DNA of 33,769 nucleotides from Alphaproteobacteria bacterium (lineage in GTDB: Bacteria; Pseudomonadota; Alphaproteobacteria; SHVZ01), in assembly GCA_016869375.1 (NCBI GenBank), contig VGEH01000039.1:1-33769 (forward strand). The letters run 5' to 3'. Positions 186 through 26,075 of this stretch are shown here, piece after piece (the first letter of the stretch is position 1; each line of letters starts with the position of its first letter). Position numbers and translations under genes: made by a program. The notes under the pieces are model-generated. The model did not search any database. It was not told where the DNA came from and saw nothing but the letters and a program-made list of their open reading frames with translations.

Positions 186-1373
186 CTAGCGGCGCGGAAT
201 GCTCGTCGTTGCGAGCAGGAGGAAGCCCGCAAGACTGCCGAGCGCGATCGCGGCCAGCACCGCGAGCGTGCCATCGGCCCCGACGGAGTCGAGCAGCAAG
301 GCGCCGATCGGCGGTGCGGCGGCCTGCGCCAGCAGGCTCGGCACGGCGAGCTTGCCGATCAGCACCGCGTAGCCATGCGGGCCGAACAGCGCCAGCGGCA
401 CCGTGCCCCGCGCGATCGACCAGATGCCGTTGCCGGCGCCGTAGAGGACCAGCGACAGCGCCGGGATCGGGAAGCCCATCCAGAGAAGCGTCATACCGAG
501 CGCGACCAGGATCACGGAGGCCGCGAGGGTCCACATCGCGTGGCAGCGGCCGCCGGTCAGCATCTCGATGACGCGGCCGCCAACCTGCGCCGGCCCGACC
601 AGCGCGCCGAGCGCCACGGCGCCGGCGAGAGTGAGACCGCCTGCCTGCAGGATCGTGATCGCGTGCACGGACCATACGGCCATGATCGCGCCGCCCGCCG
701 TCATCATCAGCGACAGGATGGCGAAGGCGAGCCGGCGGCGCCCGGGCGGTGTCTCGCCCGACTCCGGGGCGGCGGCATGCTTCATGCCGCTCTCGCGCCT
801 TTCCTCGCGCGGCAGGATGACGAGGAGAAGCGGCAGCACGACGATCAGGAAGACGGCGGCATAGACGAGGCAAGCGCCGCGCCAGCCGAAGGTCTCGGCG
901 AGGAAGGCGGAGATCGGCCAGCACACGGTGCTGGCGAAGCCGCCCCAGAGCGTGAGCGCGGTGATCGCCGGACGGGCCTCGCTGCCGAAGATGCGGCCAA
1001 GGCAGGAGAAGGCTGCATCGTAGAGCCCCGCTGCCATGCCGATGCCGAGCACGACCCAGGCGAGAAAGAAGACGACGAGGCCATTGGTCGCCGCGAGGAT
1101 CGCGAGGCCGAGCGCGAGCAGCACGACGCTCGTCGCCAGCACGGGCCGGCCGCCATGTCGTTCGATCGCATGCCCGACACGAACGGCAACGAGGCCGGCG
1201 ACGAGAAGGCCGACCGAGAGTCCGCCGACCACCCAGGCAAGCGGCCAGCCCATCTCGGCCTCGATCGGCCGTGCGAGGATCGCCGGGAGATAGTAGGAGG
1301 CACCCCAGGCGAGGATCTGCGCTATGCCGAGCGCCGCGATCACCCGCCGACGGCGGCCTGTCGACAGCGTCAT
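186..1373 (-). CDS. MFS transporter, probably part of the adjacent arsenic locus
   Basis: 395-aa ORF with about 12 hydrophobic segments, MFS-like N-terminus (AQILAWGASYYLPAILARPIEAEMGW). Same strand and 39 nt downstream of the ArsO-like flavoprotein gene. Confidence 0.85.
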   Translation of the reverse strand: MTLSTGRRRRVIAALGIAQILAWGASYYLPAILARPIEAEMGWPLAWVVGGLSVGLLVAGLVAVRVGHAIERHGGRPVLATSVVLLALGLAILAATNGLVVFFLAWVVLGIGMAAGLYDAAFSCLGRIFGSEARPAITALTLWGGFASTVCWPISAFLAETFGWRGACLVYAAVFLIVVLPLLLVILPREERRESGMKHAAAPESGETPPGRRRLAFAILSLMMTAGGAIMAVWSVHAITILQAGGLTLAGAVALGALVGPAQVGGRVIEMLTGGRCHAMWTLAASVILVALGMTLLWMGFPIPALSLVLYGAGNGIWSIARGTVPLALFGPHGYAVLIGKLAVPSLLAQAAAPPIGALLLDSVGADGTLAVLAAIALGSLAGFLLLATTSIPRR

Positions 1374-1396
1374 GCGTGAGGTCTAACGCCTCACGC
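1374..1396 (-). promoter_or_regulatory. Intercistronic 8-bp inverted repeat directly abutting the MFS start codon
   Basis: GCGTGAGG (1374-1381) / CCTCACGC (1389-1396), 7-nt loop. MFS ATG is complement 1371-1373. Confidence 0.5.
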
Positions 1397-1412
1397 CGTC
1401 GCGTTCCAAATC

Positions 1413-2825
1413 CTATCGCGCGGCGACGGACTCGGCGGGCGCAGGACAGCCGCAGCCCGCCTCGCCCGCAGCCTTCGCCTCCACATCGGCGACGCAACAG
1501 GCAGCGGCTTCGGCCGGTGCCGCGCCGCCGCAGCATCCCGCGGAGGCTTCGGCTGCTGCGAGCGACTTGCCGATTTTCGGCGTCGCGTGACAGACGCCGG
1601 TCTCCGGCAGCTCGAGCTCGACGCGCGCCGCGGCTTCGTGATCGCCGGCGAGAGCGGCTGCGATCGAACGCACCTGCTCATGCCCGGTGGCGAGCAGGAA
1701 GGTCGGGGCGCGGCCATAACTCTTGATGCCGGCGATGTAGAAGTCCTTCTCCGGATGCGCGAGCTCCTTGGCGCCGTGCGGACGCACGGTGCCGCAGCTG
1801 TGCAGGTTCGGATCGATCAGCGGGCCGAGCGCACGCGTCGATTCCAGCCACGGATCGAGATCGAGGCGGATCTCGCGCAGCGGATCGAAGTCGGGGCGGA
1901 AGCCGGTGGCGACGATCAGGCGATCGGCGATGACGCGGACGGTGTTGTCGCGCAGCGCGCCTTCGACCTCGACGGCGCCGTCGCTGCGGCGCGCGAGCCT
2001 GGCGATGCGGAAGGGCGAGAGGACCTCGACGCGGCCGTCTTCGACCGCGCGCTTGGCGCGCAGGCCGAGGGCACCGCGTTCCGGCAGCGCGTCGGCCGCG
2101 CCGCCGCCGAAGGCGCTGTCGACCTGCTCGCGCCGCGTCGCCCAGAGGATGCGCGTCGCCGGCGCCGTCTCCTGTAGCTCGGTCAGCTCGAGCAGCGCGT
2201 TCAGCGCCGAGTGGCCGCTGCCGATGACCATCACCGCCTTGTCGCGATAGGTATCGCGCGCCTCACCCAGAACATCGGGAATGCCATAGGCGATCTTGTT
2301 GCCGACCTCGCTCTCGCCCGGCACCGGCAGGCCGCCGGAGCCGATCGGGTTGGGAGAATTCCAGGTGCCGGACGCATCGATGACGGCGCTGGCCTCGATC
2401 CAGTCGCGTGTGCCGTCGCGTCCGACGGTCTCGATGACGAAAGGCTGCGCCTCGCGTCCGGCGGTCTTCACCTTGTCGAAGCCCTTGCGGCCGATCGAGA
2501 CGACCATGGTGTTGAAGCGCAGATGCGGGCTGATCGCGGGATGCGCGGCGAGCGGCTCGAGATACCGGGAGACCAGGTCGCCGCCGGTCGGCACCTCGTC
2601 GGCGGGCGGCGCTTCCCAGCCGGTCGCTTCCAGCAGCGCGCGTGCGACGCGATCGGTGGTGAAGCCCCAGGGCGAGAACATCTGCACATGCGCCCACTGG
2701 CGCACGGCGTGACCGACCTTCGGGCCGGCTTCGAGAACGAGCGGTGTCAGGCCGCGTTGAAGGAGATGCGCCGCGGCGGCAAGACCGACGGGGCCGGCGC
2801 CGATGACGGCGATGGGAAGGCTCAT
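1413..2825 (-). CDS. FAD/NAD(P)-dependent flavoprotein monooxygenase-like (ArsO-like) with Cys-rich C-terminal tail
   Basis: N-terminal GxGxxG (AVIGAGPVGLAAAAHLL), second nucleotide motif VMVIGSGHSALNALLEL, ATGFRPD motif; tail CCGG..ACC..CGC. Located between arsR and an MFS gene. Confidence 0.82.
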   Translation of the reverse strand: MSLPIAVIGAGPVGLAAAAHLLQRGLTPLVLEAGPKVGHAVRQWAHVQMFSPWGFTTDRVARALLEATGWEAPPADEVPTGGDLVSRYLEPLAAHPAISPHLRFNTMVVSIGRKGFDKVKTAGREAQPFVIETVGRDGTRDWIEASAVIDASGTWNSPNPIGSGGLPVPGESEVGNKIAYGIPDVLGEARDTYRDKAVMVIGSGHSALNALLELTELQETAPATRILWATRREQVDSAFGGGAADALPERGALGLRAKRAVEDGRVEVLSPFRIARLARRSDGAVEVEGALRDNTVRVIADRLIVATGFRPDFDPLREIRLDLDPWLESTRALGPLIDPNLHSCGTVRPHGAKELAHPEKDFYIAGIKSYGRAPTFLLATGHEQVRSIAAALAGDHEAAARVELELPETGVCHATPKIGKSLAAAEASAGCCGGAAPAEAAACCVADVEAKAAGEAGCGCPAPAESVAAR

Positions 2826-2842
2826 GGGACGACCTTTCGGGT

Positions 2843-3166
2843 TCAGGCGGCGCAGGCGCGCGGCGGGGAGGCCGCGGGCGGGGTCGCCAGCGGCTGAAGG
2901 AAAGCGACGAGATCGGCGAAGGCGGTAGGTTCGAGCCGGTAGTACATCCAGCGGCCCTGCTTCTCGCCACTGACCAGCCCGGCCTGGGTCAGGATCTTCA
3001 TGTGATGGCTGATCGCGGGCTGCGAGAGACCGAGCAGGCTCTCGATGTCGCAGGCGCAGACGCGATCGGGCAGCACGCAGCAGCCGGCGTCCGGATTGCG
3101 CAGGAACTCGACGATCCGCAGCCGGGCCGGGTCGGCGAGGGCCTTGATCTGTGGGCTCAGGTCCAT
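2843..3166 (-). CDS. arsR: ArsR/SmtB-family repressor with VCACDI metalloid motif
   Basis: wHTH; RVCACDIESLLGLSQPAISHHMKIL resembles the classical ELCVCDL As(III) site. ATG at complement 3166 preferred over the TTG at 3175 in the ORF track. Confidence 0.88.
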   Translation of the reverse strand: MDLSPQIKALADPARLRIVEFLRNPDAGCCVLPDRVCACDIESLLGLSQPAISHHMKILTQAGLVSGEKQGRWMYYRLEPTAFADLVAFLQPLATPPAASPPRACAA

Positions 3167-3170
3167 GCGT

Positions 3171-3193
3171 TTCAATATATCGATGGATTTGAA
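3171..3193. promoter_or_regulatory. Putative ArsR operator in divergent promoter region
   Basis: AT-rich inverted repeat TTCAA-N13-TTGAA (TTCAATATATCGATGGATTTGAA) in a GC-rich background, between arsR and the divergent dioxygenase. Confidence 0.45.
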
Positions 3194-3237
3194 TATGTCA
3201 ATGTAAGAAGATGTTCCAATAAAGTGGAGGAGCGATC

Positions 3238-4320
3238 ATGGGCAGTTTTGATGGGGAGATGCCGCCCGCGCCGGTCGGCGGCAGCTTCGCCTGGACGGTG
3301 CCGGAGGTGATGCGGCGCGAGGATTGGATCTGCCGGCTCGATGCCGATGCAATCACGGAGATCGAGGCCGCGCTCGACGCGACGCGCAAGCGCGGCCTGC
3401 AGATCCAGGAGATCGGCCGCGACGACTTCGCCCTCGATCGCCTGACGACGCGGCTCGGCGCGTTGCGCGCGCAGATCCGCTCGGGCCTCGGTTTCGGCTA
3501 CATCAAGGGGCTGCCGGTCGAGCGCTACGACCGCGAGACCCTGATGCGCATCTATTGGGGGCTCTGTCGTCATATCGGCGATCCGGTGACGCAGAACCGC
3601 AACGGGCATCTCGTCGGCCATGTCATCGATGTCGGCGACGCGGTCGCAGATGCCAACAAGCGCATCACCCAGACCAATGCCGAACTCTGCTTCCACGCGG
3701 ATTCGTGCGACGTCGTCTCGCTTCTCTGCATCAACCGGGCCGAGCGCGGCGGCGAGAGCATGATCGTCGGCGCCGTCTCGGTGCATGACGCGATGATGAA
3801 GAGGCGCCCCGACCTGCTGCCCGAGCTCTACAAGCCGATCTACATGGACCGCCGCGGCGAGGTGCCGCCGGGCAAGCTTCCCTGGTTCGGCATGCCGCTC
3901 TTCACCTGGCATCGCGGCGGATTGAACGGCTACGCGCCGGTGCGCCAGTACATCGAGTCGCTCTCGCGCTTCCCCGACGCGCCGCGCATGTCCAACGCGC
4001 AGGCCGAGGCGCTCGATCTCTTCTATGCGATCTGCGAGGAGGACGCCTTCTGTCTCCGCCTGCACTTCGAGCCGGGCGACATCCAGTTCCTGCAGAACCA
4101 TGTGATCTTCCACTCTCGCACCGGCTATGTCGACGGGCCGGACCCGGTGCGGAAGCGTCACCTGATGCGGATCTGGATGTCGCTGCCCGACGGCCGCGAG
4201 CTGCCGGCCTCCTATGCCGAGAAGTGGATCAACATCGCGCTCGGCACCAGGCGCGGCGGCGTGCCGACCGACAAGCCGCCGGTGATCCCGCTCGATCCCT
4301 TCACCAAGGCCTATGCCTAG
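3238..4320 (+). CDS. TauD/TfdA-family Fe(II)/2-oxoglutarate-dependent dioxygenase in ars locus
   Basis: 360-aa ORF; HxD in ELCFHADSCDVVSL and distal His in GDIQFLQNHVIFHSRTGY, with the downstream Arg region KRHLMRIWMSLP. Confidence 0.85.
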   Translation: MGSFDGEMPPAPVGGSFAWTVPEVMRREDWICRLDADAITEIEAALDATRKRGLQIQEIGRDDFALDRLTTRLGALRAQIRSGLGFGYIKGLPVERYDRETLMRIYWGLCRHIGDPVTQNRNGHLVGHVIDVGDAVADANKRITQTNAELCFHADSCDVVSLLCINRAERGGESMIVGAVSVHDAMMKRRPDLLPELYKPIYMDRRGEVPPGKLPWFGMPLFTWHRGGLNGYAPVRQYIESLSRFPDAPRMSNAQAEALDLFYAICEEDAFCLRLHFEPGDIQFLQNHVIFHSRTGYVDGPDPVRKRHLMRIWMSLPDGRELPASYAEKWINIALGTRRGGVPTDKPPVIPLDPFTKAYA

Positions 4321-4323
4321 CGA

Positions 4324-4352
4324 TTGACACCGGGGCTAAGGTTCGATATTTC
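4324..4352 (+). promoter_or_regulatory. Possible sigma70-type promoter for arsR2-arsC-aqpS
   Basis: TTGACA at 4324-4329, 17-nt spacer, TATTTC; within the 39-nt gap before arsR2. Confidence 0.3.
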
Positions 4353-4359
4353 CAGAACT

Positions 4360-4707
4360 ATGAAATCAACGGCGATCGTCGCGACCCTCTCTGCGCTCGC
4401 GCAGGAAACGCGGCTCGCGATCTTCCGATTGCTGGTCGATGCGGGGCCCGATGGAATGCCCGCCGGCGCGATCGCCGAGCGCCTGGACCTGCCGGCGCCG
4501 ACGCTCTCCTTCCATCTGGCCCAGCTCGATCGCGCCGGCATCGTCGCCTCGCGCCGGGCCGGGCGCTCGATCATCTACGCCGCGCATTTCCCGGCGATGC
4601 AGGCGCTGATCGGCGCGCTGACCGAAAGCTGCTGCGCCGGCAATCCGGAGGCCTGCGGCTTTCCGGCTCCAAGAGGAAAGCGTCGCCTGGCGAGGACCAA
4701 GTCATGA
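4360..4707 (+). CDS. arsR: Second ArsR-family repressor, C-terminal Cys type
   Basis: wHTH (LDLPAPTLSFHLAQLDRAGIVASRRAGRSIIYAA); no ELCVCDL motif, instead C-terminal SCCAGNPEAC. ATG at 4360 in ORF frame. Confidence 0.85.
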   Translation: MKSTAIVATLSALAQETRLAIFRLLVDAGPDGMPAGAIAERLDLPAPTLSFHLAQLDRAGIVASRRAGRSIIYAAHFPAMQALIGALTESCCAGNPEACGFPAPRGKRRLARTKS

Positions 4708-5210
4708 ACCGGCCCTACAACGTGCTCTTCCTCTGCACCGGCAATTCGGCGCGCTCGATCCTGGCGGAAGCGCTGCTCAATCGCCTCGGCGGCGGCCGCT
4801 TCGACGCCTACAGCGCCGGCAGCCAGCCCAAGGGCGCGGTGCATCCGCTGGCGCTCGAGCTGCTACAGGCACAGGGCTTTCCGACCGCGGACCTTCGCAG
4901 CAAGAGCTGGGACGAGTTCGAGGCAGCGGACGCGCCGAAAATGGACTTCGTCTTCACCGTCTGCGACTCCGCCGCGGCCGAGAGCTGCCCCGTGTGGCCG
5001 GGTCAGCCGATGACCGCGCATTGGGGCCTGCCGGATCCCGCCGCGGTCGAGGGTGCCCTCGATGCTCGGCGCAAGGCGTTCAAGGAAACCTTCGTCGCGC
5101 TTCAGGCGCGGCTGCGCCTCTTCACGAACCTCGGCATCGACAAGCTCGACCGCCTCGCGCTCAAGCGCGAGATCCAGCAGATCGGCCGCATGGTCGGCGA
5201 GAGTGTCTGA
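4704..5210 (+). CDS. arsC: Arsenate reductase, low-molecular-weight PTP/thioredoxin type
   Basis: P-loop CTGNSARS, VCDSAAAESCPVWPG with second and third Cys, DP near TAHWGLPDP. ATGA overlap with arsR2. Confidence 0.92.
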   Translation: MNRPYNVLFLCTGNSARSILAEALLNRLGGGRFDAYSAGSQPKGAVHPLALELLQAQGFPTADLRSKSWDEFEAADAPKMDFVFTVCDSAAAESCPVWPGQPMTAHWGLPDPAAVEGALDARRKAFKETFVALQARLRLFTNLGIDKLDRLALKREIQQIGRMVGESV

Positions 5211-5865
5211 GGCGAGCCTGCCGCGGCGGCTCGCCGCGGAGTTCGTCGGCAGCGCCTTCCTGCTCGCCACCGTCGTCGGCTCGGGGATCATGGGTGCGAG
5301 CCTGTCGGGCGGGAACGTCGCGCTCGCGCTCCTCGGCAACACGCTGGCAACCGGCGCGATCCTCTTCGTGCTGATATCCCAGCTCGCGCCGATCTCAGGT
5401 GCTCACTTCAATCCGGCGGTGACGCTGGTCGTCATGCTTCGTCGCGAGCTTTCGGCACGCGAGGGCCTTCTCTACGCGGTGGCGCAGCTCGCCGGCGCGA
5501 CTCTCGGCGTCGTCGTCGCGCATCTGATGTTCGACCAGATGCTGCTCCAGGTCGGAACCAAGGTCCGCACCGGCAGCGCGCAGTGGATTGCCGAGTTCGT
5601 CGCCACCTTCGGCTTGCTCCTGACGATCCTGCTGACGGCGCGCGAGCGCGTCGCCGCCTCGGTCGCGCTCTACATCACGGCGGCCTACTGGTTCACGGCG
5701 TCCACGTCCTTCGCCAATCCGACGGTGACGATCGCGCGCAGCCTCTCTGATACCTTCGCCGGCATCCGGCCGGCGGATGTGGCGCCCTTCATCGTCGCGC
5801 AGGTTGTGGGCGCGCTCGCGGCCCTGGCGTTCTGCCGCTGGATGCGGCCTAACCCTCGCGCTTGA
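5203..5865 (+). CDS. aqpS: MIP/aquaglyceroporin-family channel, AqpS-like
   Basis: HFNPAVT first NPA box and FANPTVTIARS second (NPT) box; GTG start at 5203 overlaps the arsC end by 8 nt. Confidence 0.85.
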   Translation: MSEASLPRRLAAEFVGSAFLLATVVGSGIMGASLSGGNVALALLGNTLATGAILFVLISQLAPISGAHFNPAVTLVVMLRRELSAREGLLYAVAQLAGATLGVVVAHLMFDQMLLQVGTKVRTGSAQWIAEFVATFGLLLTILLTARERVAASVALYITAAYWFTASTSFANPTVTIARSLSDTFAGIRPADVAPFIVAQVVGALAALAFCRWMRPNPRA

Positions 5866-6667
5866 TCGCGCTTTCGTGCCATCGGCGCAGCAGCAGGTGG
5901 TTCAGGGCCGTGAAGGCGAGGAAGATCACGATGCCGGCGCCGGAGATCAGGAAGAGGGACGCATACATGCGCGGGATCTCGAGGCGATAGCTGGCTTCCA
6001 GGATGCGGAAGGCGAGGCCCGATCCCGAGCCGGCGCCGCCGGCGACGAACTCGGCGACGATGGCGCCGATCAGGGCCAGGCCGCCGGAGATGCGCAGGCC
6101 CCCGAGGAAGAACGGCAGCGCGCCCGGCACGCGGATGAACCAGAGCACCTGCCAGCGCTTCGCGCCGTAGAGCCGCATCAGGTCGAGCAGATTGTGGTCG
6201 GCCGAGTTGAGCCCGATCGTGGTGTTGGAGAGGATCGGGAAAAAGGCGACGATCCAGGCGCAGATCAGGAGCGCCATGGTCAGGTTGTCGACATAGACGA
6301 TGATCAAGGGCGCGATGGCGACGATCGGCGTCACCTGCAGGATCACCGCATAGGGAAAGAGCGAAAGCTCTATCCAGCGCGCGGAAGCGAAGAGCACGGC
6401 GAGCGAGAAGCCGCCGAGCACGGCGACGATCAGCGCGAGCGCGGTCACCTGCAGCGTGTTCACCAGCGACGGCCACAGCATGTGCCAGTCGCGGATCATC
6501 GCCTCGCCGATCGCGAGCGGGCCGGGCAGGATGTACCAGGGGATCTCCTTGACCCGGACCATCGTCTCCCAGGCGACGAGCACGACGATGCCGATGGCGA
6601 GCGGCGCGCCGACCTTGAGCCAGAGCGACTCGCGCCGCGACTTCGGCTGAGCCGTAGTGTCGGTCAT
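5849..6667 (-). CDS. ABC transporter permease, SsuC/TauC-like
   Basis: Binding-protein-dependent permease pattern (PGPLAIGEAMIRDW..., GGLRISGGLALIGAIVAEF). Confidence 0.9.
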   Translation of the reverse strand: MTDTTAQPKSRRESLWLKVGAPLAIGIVVLVAWETMVRVKEIPWYILPGPLAIGEAMIRDWHMLWPSLVNTLQVTALALIVAVLGGFSLAVLFASARWIELSLFPYAVILQVTPIVAIAPLIIVYVDNLTMALLICAWIVAFFPILSNTTIGLNSADHNLLDLMRLYGAKRWQVLWFIRVPGALPFFLGGLRISGGLALIGAIVAEFVAGGAGSGSGLAFRILEASYRLEIPRMYASLFLISGAGIVIFLAFTALNHLLLRRWHESAIKREG

Positions 6668-7431
6668 GCGGCAATCGCCTGGTGCAGGCTGCGCGAGACG
6701 TCGCGGCAGAGATCGCCATAGGCATCGGAGACGCGGAAGCGGTCATCGCGCGGATAGGGGGCGTCGATGGCGATGTCCTCGACGATGCGCCCGGGCCTCG
6801 CCGACATCACCAGGATGCGGTTCGAGAGGTAGACCGACTCGAAGACCGAGTGGGTGACGAAGACCACGGTCCATTTGTGCTGCTGCCACAGCGCCAACAG
6901 GTCGTTGTTAAGCTTGAAGCGCGTGATCTCGTCGAGCGCGGCGAAGGGCTCGTCCATCAGCAGCACCTTCGGCCGCGTGACGAGCGCGCGCGCGATCGAG
7001 ACGCGCATCTTCATGCCGCCGGAAAGCTCGCGCGGAAACGACTTGGCGAAGCCCTCGAGGCCGACCATGCGGATCGCCTCGTCGACGCGCGTATCGGCCT
7101 CTGCCTTGGAGGCGCCGGATACGCGAAGCGGCAGGCGGATGTTCTCGGCGACGCTGGCCCAGGGCATCAGCGTCGGCTCCTGGAAGACGAATCCCAACTC
7201 GGGATGGCCGCCGGCGCGGGTCGCTTCCGGCAGGCCCGGCCAGTCGATGCGCCCGGTGCTCGGCTCGATCAGGCCCGCGATCATGCGAAGGATCGTCGAC
7301 TTGCCGCAGCCCGAAGGCCCGAGCAGCGAGACGAAGCTGCCTGCCTCGATCGCGAGATCGACGCGGTCGACCGCGAGCGTGCCGTTGGGAAAGCGCTTGG
7401 CGACGCCGGAGAGCGTGACGAGCGGCGGCAT
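6664..7431 (-). CDS. ABC transporter ATP-binding protein, SsuB/TauB-like
   Basis: Walker A GPSGCGKST, signature LSGGMKMRVSIARAL, Walker B VLLMDEPFAALD. Confidence 0.94.
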   Translation of the reverse strand: MPPLVTLSGVAKRFPNGTLAVDRVDLAIEAGSFVSLLGPSGCGKSTILRMIAGLIEPSTGRIDWPGLPEATRAGGHPELGFVFQEPTLMPWASVAENIRLPLRVSGASKAEADTRVDEAIRMVGLEGFAKSFPRELSGGMKMRVSIARALVTRPKVLLMDEPFAALDEITRFKLNNDLLALWQQHKWTVVFVTHSVFESVYLSNRILVMSARPGRIVEDIAIDAPYPRDDRFRVSDAYGDLCRDVSRSLHQAIAA

Positions 7432-7438
7432 GGCCAGA

Positions 7439-7473
7439 CGCCCTCTTCTCCGCTTGGGGCGGAGGAGAGGGCG
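7439..7473 (-). promoter_or_regulatory. Strong intercistronic stem-loop between substrate-binding protein and ATPase genes
   Basis: 15-nt arms CGCCCTCTTCTCCGC / GCGGAGGAGAGGGCG, one mismatch (G.U if read on plus), 5-nt loop. Confidence 0.65.
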
Positions 7474-7479
7474 AGAGAC

Positions 7480-8493
7480 CTACAGGCCGACCTTCTTGTT
7501 CACGAACTTCGTCGTGTAAGCCTTGGTGTAGTCGGTGCCCGGCGCGTAGACGCCGAGCGCCTGGGCGTCGTCGAAGGCCGCCTTCCAGCGCTGGTCGGTC
7601 ATGGCGCCGATGCCGAGCGTCTTGGCGTCGCCGGAATCGACGATGCCGTATTTCTTCATCGCCTCGATCGAGAAGGCGATCTGGTCATCGGTCATGTCCG
7701 GGTTGTCCTTCTTGATGAGGGCATTGCCGGGCGCGGGGTTGCCGTAGAGATAGTCCTTCCAGCCGAGGATGGAGGCGTCGACGAAGCGCTGCACGAGGTC
7801 GGGCTTCTCGTCGATCAGCTTCTGGCTGACCTCGATCGTCGTCGAATAGGTGCGATAGCCGTTGTCGGCGAGCAGGTGCACGACCGGGGTCACGCCAGCC
7901 TTGATCGCGGCATAGGGCTCGGAGGTCGCATAGCCCTGCTGGCTGATCTGCTTGTCGGCGAGGAAGGGCGCGATGTTGAAGGTGTAGGGCACCACCATCT
8001 CGTCGGTGAAGCCGAACATCTTCTTGAGATAGGGATAGAAGCTGACGACGCCGGCCTTCGAGATCAGGACCTTCTTGCCCTTGAGCGCGGCCAGGCTGTC
8101 GTTGCCGACGCCCGGATGCGACATCAGGATCTGCGGATCCTTCTGGAAGATCGCGGCGACGGCGCGGAAGGGGATGTTCTTCTCGGCGAAGGCGAAGACG
8201 CTGTCCGAGTTGCCGCCCATGTTGAAGTCGATGCGGCCGGCGAGCATCAGCAGGTTGTTGTCGACCTGCGGCCCGCCCTGGCGGATCGTCACGTCGAGGC
8301 CGTACTTGGCGTAGATCCCGGTAGCGACGGCCTGATAGTAGCCGCCATGCTCGGCCTGTGCCTTCCAGTTGGTCGCCTTGGTGACCTTGTCCTGGGCGAA
8401 AGCGTTGGGGACGAGAGCGGGCGAAGCAGCGAGAGCGGCGAGCACCGCGGCGACGAGGAACGAGCGGGTCATAGTGCCTCCATGGGGGATCAT
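7480..8493 (-). CDS. ABC transporter substrate-binding protein, NMT1/THI5/SsuA-like
   Basis: Signal peptide (FLVAAVLAALAASPALVPNAFAQ) and NMT1-like body (GGYYQAVATGIYAKYGLDVTIRQGGPQ). Confidence 0.9.
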   Translation of the reverse strand: MIPHGGTMTRSFLVAAVLAALAASPALVPNAFAQDKVTKATNWKAQAEHGGYYQAVATGIYAKYGLDVTIRQGGPQVDNNLLMLAGRIDFNMGGNSDSVFAFAEKNIPFRAVAAIFQKDPQILMSHPGVGNDSLAALKGKKVLISKAGVVSFYPYLKKMFGFTDEMVVPYTFNIAPFLADKQISQQGYATSEPYAAIKAGVTPVVHLLADNGYRTYSTTIEVSQKLIDEKPDLVQRFVDASILGWKDYLYGNPAPGNALIKKDNPDMTDDQIAFSIEAMKKYGIVDSGDAKTLGIGAMTDQRWKAAFDDAQALGVYAPGTDYTKAYTTKFVNKKVGL

Positions 8494-25196: not shown

Positions 25197-26075
25197 ATGA
25201 CCGCGATCGTCCAGGCCAGCCGTCTCCGTGTGCGTCCGCTCGGCAACGCGCTCGGCGCGGAAGTCACCGGCGGCGATCTCAAGACGGCGAGCGAGGCGGA
25301 TATCGAGGCGCTGCGCGAGGCGATCCTCGATCGCTACGTGCTTCGGCTCCGCGGCTACAGGCTCGACGACATCGAGTTCACGCGTTTCGTCGAGCGGCTG
25401 GGGCCGCTCCACACATCGCCCGACTATGTGAAGGACCGGAAGGTCTATGTGAAGGAGTCGCCGCTGATGAGCGTCGTCTCCAACATCGTCGAGAATGGCG
25501 AGCCGATCGGCCATCACGGCGATGGCGAGCTGGGATGGCACACCGATCTCTCCTTCACCGATATCCCCTCAGAGTTCACACTGCTCTGCGCGCGCGAGGT
25601 GCCGCCGAAAGGCGGCAATACCTGGTTCTGCGACATGTATGACGCCTATGAGTCGCTGTCGTTGGAGATGAAGCAGCGGGTCGCACGCCTCACGCTCAAG
25701 CATCAGGCGAGCCACAACCCGCAATACGGGCGCTGGCCCGGCTGGTCGCATATCGAGACGGACGATGTGCGCGAGATGCCGGGGCCGATCCATCCGCTGG
25801 TGCGCACCCATCCGGTGAGCGGTCGGAAGACGCTCTATCTCGGCCGCCGCTTCGGCGCCTATATCCCAGGCCTCAAGCTGGAGAAGAGCGAGGCGTTGCT
25901 CGACGAGCTCTGGTCGCATGCCGGGCGGCCGGAGCATTGCTTCATCCAGGAGTGGCAGCAGGGCGACATCGTCATGTGGGATAACCGCTGCACCATGCAC
26001 CGGCGCGACGCCTTCCCGGGGCAGGGACGGCGGCGCATGCACGGGCTGATGACGCGCGGCACGCGGCCGGAGTGA
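25197..26075 (+). CDS. TauD/TfdA-family dioxygenase
   Basis: LGWHTDLSFTDIPSEFTLLCA (HxD), WDNRCTMHRRDAF (distal His), RRRMHGLMTRG (Arg). Confidence 0.9.
   Translation: MTAIVQASRLRVRPLGNALGAEVTGGDLKTASEADIEALREAILDRYVLRLRGYRLDDIEFTRFVERLGPLHTSPDYVKDRKVYVKESPLMSVVSNIVENGEPIGHHGDGELGWHTDLSFTDIPSEFTLLCAREVPPKGGNTWFCDMYDAYESLSLEMKQRVARLTLKHQASHNPQYGRWPGWSHIETDDVREMPGPIHPLVRTHPVSGRKTLYLGRRFGAYIPGLKLEKSEALLDELWSHAGRPEHCFIQEWQQGDIVMWDNRCTMHRRDAFPGQGRRRMHGLMTRGTRPE

Follow-up and report, generated by a model that had tools for sequence, protein, structure and literature searches.

A TauD-family oxygenase gene in an alphaproteobacterial ars locus as a candidate accessory arsenic-resistance gene

TauD-family oxygenases are best explained as accessory genes of arsenic resistance (ars) loci that have been recruited at least twice. 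One case is a tauD gene located between two arsR genes in the 33.8-kb stretch of DNA analysed here (the window). The other, which is new here, is a distant TauD clade embedded in arsR-arsI-tauD-arsC-(acr3/aqpS) operons. The picture of a patchy accessory ars gene with at least two recruitments is drawn from the layout of a sister species, the operator-like site upstream of tauD, the ortholog of BAL199 and the second clade. Linkage to ars operons was found in two species for the window clade and in four for the second clade, and it is patchy elsewhere. The window protein belongs to an iron-dependent oxygenase family whose best-known reaction is C-S bond cleavage, and it is a credible candidate for a new arsenic-detoxification enzyme. 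No precedent for TauD or 2-oxoglutarate (2OG) enzymes in ars operons was found in the open-licence literature.

The tauD gene, its locus and its upstream sites

The tauD ORF is intact and its ATG start is preceded by a GGAGGAG ribosome site. The product scored 112.3 bits (cut-off 27) in a profile search with PF02668 (TauD), and it carries both the facial triad of metal ligands (H153-x-D155...H292) and the 2OG-binding arginine (R307) of that family, which bears out the intact 2-oxoglutarate dioxygenase ORF with a HAD...H motif proposed in a preliminary description. R307 and R311 are unchanged in 93 of 93 aligned homologs. They presumably correspond to the R-x3-R of TauD, which binds 2OG and sulfonate, and probably form the 2OG and anion site of the window protein.

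PF02668 is shared with taurine dioxygenase TauD and TfdA, and the cofactor chemistry is expected to be alike; however, the window protein reaches no NCBIfam equivalog, that of taurine dioxygenase included, and its only matches were weak ones to other equivalog models, far under their cut-offs. The ArsI/CadI VOC-type profile gave no match to this protein, which is matched by the TauD profile instead, and no cysteine pair for As(III) binding is evident in it. The best solved relative by sequence comparison is the "Predicted hydroxylase" PDB 7n7v (E 1.6e-53), which is still distant. Homology to FrbJ (PDB 5eqn), a phosphonate hydroxylase of FR-900098 biosynthesis, extends across 324 residues (E 1.6e-42). 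FrbJ has the same metal and R-x3-R motif, but it is a distant relative from a non-ars context with a role in antibiotic synthesis. The AlphaFold model, obtained with the window protein and three orthologs (four sequences), had a mean pLDDT of 38, a value too low to support the double-stranded beta-helix expected of the family. A second, ordinary TauD-family gene is present at 25197-26075 of the window (PF02668, 220 bits), and there are 12 such matches in the genome.

Table 1. Features of the ars locus around tauD (window positions).
Feature	Position	Strand	Remarks
MFS transporter, ArsK-like	186..1373	-	NF033733 229 bits, under its cut-off of 400
FAD/NAD(P) flavoprotein, Cys-rich tail, distantly ArsO-like	1413..2825	-	core of the ArsR/PadR-flavoprotein-MFS module
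arsR1, ArsR/SmtB repressor, CxC metal motif (VCACDIE)	2843..3166	-	
arsR1 promoter/operator, TTGACA-N16-TATATT, arms TTGAATATG/CAATATAT	3174..3201	-	11/12 promoter match
ArsR2-type operator-like palindrome TTCCAATAAAGTGGAG, TTCCA-ATAAAG-TGGAG	3214..3229	+	exact core 3214-3228
tauD, TauD/TfdA-family Fe(II)/2OG oxygenase, 360 aa	3238..4320	+	PF02668 profile; motif residues
TTGACA, putative -35 of a promoter specific to the arsR2 operon	4324..4329	+	by eye; directly 3' of the tauD stop
arsR2 operator TTCCAGAACTATGAAA, across the arsR2 start codon	4350..4365	+	
arsR2, ArsR repressor, C-terminal CC-x5-C	4360..4707	+	
arsC, LMW-phosphatase-type (thioredoxin-coupled) arsenate reductase	4704..5210	+	
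aqpS, MIP/aquaglyceroporin channel	5203..5865	+	
NMT1/SsuA-type ABC transporter (permease, ATPase, binding protein)	5849..8493	-	congeners without tauD keep the transporter

The coordinates agree with the earlier placement of tauD, divergent from an arsR gene (arsR1 on the minus strand, tauD on the plus strand) and 39 nt before arsR2-arsC-aqpS (stop at 4320, arsR2 start at 4360). On this right flank the pairs arsR2/arsC and arsC/aqpS overlap, and the part types are those of the Sinorhizobium meliloti-type ars operon with aqpS (PMC6205960); the published ars operon survey has no mention of a dioxygenase or TauD (PMC6205960). The left flank consists of arsR1, the flavoprotein and the ArsK-like MFS transporter. 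The arsR1 ORF spans 2843-3175, and the start conserved in its relatives is the ATG at 3166.

The three genes of the left flank form a widespread ars module. Its flavoprotein is present in 33 of the 385 sampled genomes of the class (E<1e-90) and adjoins ArsR or a Cys-bearing PadR in nearly all loci examined, usually with an MFS transporter; on plasmid pB32-2 of Bosea, arsH, arsC and acr3 come after the flavoprotein gene. The module with ArsR or Cys-rich PadR, flavoprotein and ArsK-like MFS (window 186-3175, loci L122-L174) recurs across Alphaproteobacteria and also on Bosea, Roseomonas and Rhodococcus plasmids, and its distantly ArsO-like flavoprotein looks uncharacterised. At L054 7066-7530, a regulator of the PadR family that bears CC and ACCG motifs is encoded directly 5' of the flavoprotein gene; such a PadR is a possible candidate for the As(III) sensor that stands in for ArsR in many of these modules.

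tauD carries an ArsR-type operator-like site upstream. It had been described as lying downstream of one AT-rich ArsR box; the box region is real, but it holds two different boxes, that of ArsR1 and one of ArsR2 type. The arsR1 promoter is kept in four congeneric genomes, some of them without tauD. The TTCCA-N6-TGGA core of the second box ends 9 nt before tauD. This exact core occurs once in the window (0.14 expected), shuffles of the 62-nt region match the quality of the site in 0.11% of cases (p 0.0011), and the ArsR2-class promoters have a common palindrome, TTCCA-N6-TGGAA, with at most 2 mismatches in 28 of 47 (about 1.2 expected from shuffles), all these values being suggestive rather than strict tests because the motif was spotted during alignment reading.

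Relatives of the window gene inside and outside the genus

Neighbourhoods were read by tblastn with markers taken from the loci found, using flanks of 1.5-6 kb in a sample of genomes, a reading that divergent ars genes may escape. The layout of the congeneric sister genome G002 is identical to that of the window from the flavoprotein through the ABC importer, and it includes a weaker ArsR2-type site (2 mismatches) at the equivalent place upstream of tauD. Between the tauD genes of G000 and G002 the whole-gene dN/dS is 0.19 and dS is 0.50, and dS of the flavoprotein gene is 0.52. The divergence of tauD agrees with that of its neighbours, and branch lengths are similar in both species. The ars-tauD block has diverged vertically in these species, with tauD under purifying selection. 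In the G002 protein (L053 5983-7077) the metal ligand H153 is replaced by tyrosine (CAC to TAC), and this is the only genome with such a replacement among the 93 aligned homologs, where G002 accounts for two overlapping rows. As G002 is metagenome-assembled, the tyrosine may stem from an error of assembly or from recent inactivation.

Other congeners have ars loci without tauD. In G003, arsR1 faces arsR2-arsC-aqpS; G001 has only arsR1-flavoprotein-MFS, adjoining the ABC importer; and in G005 the ars locus is rearranged. The arsC gene of G003 (L215 3290-3774) appears frameshifted. The congener layouts with and without tauD indicate that the gene is an addition of patchy occurrence, placed between two regulatory regions. 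Such patchiness, the H153Y change in the sister species and the two of three closest outside orthologs that have no ars neighbours would be expected if tauD had landed by chance between two ars promoters and were kept, or decaying, with no arsenic role. However, the low whole-gene dN/dS with branch lengths alike in both species, the ArsR2-type box upstream and the fact that a second TauD clade entered ars operons independently argue against a chance landing, which is considered unlikely; tauD is probably not a mere passenger.

The ABC importer also has to be considered, as it is related to TauABC/SsuABC and, in both species that carry tauD, is found 1.5 kb downstream. TauD could partner it in sulfonate utilisation, with the ars genes merely intervening. 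Nevertheless, the importer sits on the opposite strand, it adjoins the ars genes in G001, G004 and G005, all of them without this tauD, and no NMT1/SsuA-type transporter is found among the operon genes of the second clade. Since congeners retain the importer without tauD, a link between the two is unlikely, and sulfonate utilisation as a whole is regarded as highly improbable.

The nearest relatives outside the genus, with 77-80% identity, are those of BAL199 (L054), L055 and G140 (L102), and in all three a LysR gene is divergent from tauD. In BAL199, a PadR gene and a flavoprotein gene of the window's type are located directly 3' of the tauD ortholog, in an arrangement that differs from the window, and no ars genes were detected near the orthologs of L055 and G140. 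In a quick tree (91 rows, LG+G4, SH-aLRT support only) the window and G002 proteins cluster (96% SH-aLRT) inside the LysR-linked group. The LysR gene beside the closest outside relatives, together with the location of most relatives away from ars genes, indicates that the window tauD was recruited.

Among about 90 homologs, six are inside ars loci and one is beside the flavoprotein module, and most of those with 35-46% identity have no ars neighbours. The preliminary description held that an arsenic role would be refuted if homologs rarely lay near ars genes. This is partly the case, as the count of six and the two of three closest outside orthologs without ars genes indicate, but the presence of TauD in ars operons recurs independently. 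When the phylum was searched for close relatives of the two TauD clades, nothing new emerged, and none of the five plasmid relatives inspected has ars neighbours. Relatives adjoin varied metabolic genes, sulfur metabolism among them.

These neighbours are in line with a co-opted helper, which would retain the ancestral activity of its LysR-controlled past (on an organic acid, a sulfonate or an amino acid) under ArsR control and leave arsenic untouched, its product aiding the cell under arsenic stress, for example through sulfur or thiol supply. The LysR-linked non-ars orthologs also have nearly all conserved residues in common with the window protein, and the surroundings of the metal and Arg motifs are nearly identical in the ars-linked and the LysR-linked orthologs. 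This likeness means that the substrate may predate recruitment and that arsenic is not required. On the other hand, the position of the second clade directly between arsI and arsC fits better with arsenic chemistry, and the helper role is regarded as rather unlikely.

A second TauD clade in arsI operons of another order

The second clade has 34% identity to the window protein and occurs in four species of two genera from another order. The gene order is arsR-arsI-tauD-arsC-acr3 in G015, G414 and G415, and aqpS replaces acr3 in G391, so that tauD is always placed between the C-As lyase gene (arsI) and arsC (4/4 species). The proteins are 63-79% identical to that of G015, and in the alignment they keep every metal and Arg residue. 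The genes overlap or nearly abut in most operons: in G415 arsI is separated from tauD by 3 nt and the frames of tauD and arsC share 4 nt, and in G015 the tauD-arsC gap is about 107 nt. The VOC protein of the operon narrowly exceeds the ArsI/CadI cut-off (116.7 vs 116), and the exporter exceeds that of ACR3 (436 vs 283). The ArsI proteins of the L051, L212, L213 and L214 operons have an additional Cys-rich C-terminal tail.

tauD lies between arsI and arsC in 4 of the 28 arsI loci of this order; among the other 24, arsC was undetected in four, two of them at contig ends. Some genomes of the order have a 98-99% identical arsR without tauD. Taken together, the four of 28 loci and the near-identical arsR without tauD indicate that the second-clade gene is optional and its position fixed. 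These operons are a clean testable case, with natural versions with and without tauD at one place. No ars genes were detected near other TauD homologs of this order with identities up to 47% (1.5-kb flanks; about 5 kb for some). A common origin of both ars-linked clades was rejected, as they are separate in the tree and each has closer non-ars relatives.

Possible role in arsenic resistance

It is quite possible, although at somewhat less than even confidence, that the window tauD is an accessory ars gene under an ArsR2-type operator and that its enzyme cleaves a pentavalent organoarsenical via hydroxylation. A stand-alone LysR-linked oxygenase gene would have been captured between arsR1 and arsR2 and placed under the ArsR2-type operator, where arsenic would induce it. 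The carbon hydroxylated by TauD-type enzymes adjoins an anionic group of sulfur or phosphorus. An arsonate hydroxylated at the alpha position should break down to an aldehyde and arsenite. Following the model of TauD, which acts beside sulfur in taurine, the enzyme, with Fe(II), O2 and 2-oxoglutarate, could add a hydroxyl group to the carbon adjoining arsenic in an arsonate or arsinate. The hydroxylated product would break into an aldehyde and inorganic arsenic, and the latter would pass to ArsC, AqpS and the ArsK-like exporter. Against this explanation, G001, G003 and G005 have ars loci without tauD, few arsI loci of the other order (4 of 28) contain it, most homologs are away from ars genes, the LysR-linked orthologs resemble the window protein closely, no cysteine pair for As(III) is evident, and the G002 protein has lost a metal ligand (H153Y).

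ArsI, a product of ars operons, is an oxygenase that depends on Fe(II) (PMC12607644). ArsI (NF041414) and the window TauD are alike in their expected Fe(II) dependence and ars association, and in the operons of the second clade ArsI is the direct partner of TauD; unlike the window protein, ArsI has a VOC fold and uses no 2-oxoglutarate. The substrates of ArsI are trivalent organoarsenicals. The lack of an evident Cys pair for As(III) in the window TauD points to a pentavalent substrate. A search of the window's genome, whose assembly is about 90% complete, revealed no ArsI homolog, and TauD could therefore complement ArsI or take its place. More tentatively, the TauD-family 2OG oxygenases, recruited at least twice, might be a second C-As-cleaving class for organoarsenicals beyond the reach of ArsI; substrates may include pentavalent alkyl arsonates, arsinates and arsenobetaine. 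To our knowledge, few enzymes carry out biological C-As cleavage in ars systems, ArsI foremost. If true, the release of inorganic arsenic from pentavalent or marine organoarsenicals by a 2OG oxygenase would supply a missing step of the arsenic cycle.

A Pseudomonas aeruginosa plasmid (L253 5938-11698) carries two related TauD genes with 36-37% identity to one or other query. The pair adjoins genes for a sulfurtransferase, a soxC-type sulfite dehydrogenase and a cytochrome c, which suggests an organosulfur degradation cluster. By analogy, this pair could be the sulfur counterpart of the arrangement proposed here, as expected of a C-S cleaving enzyme.
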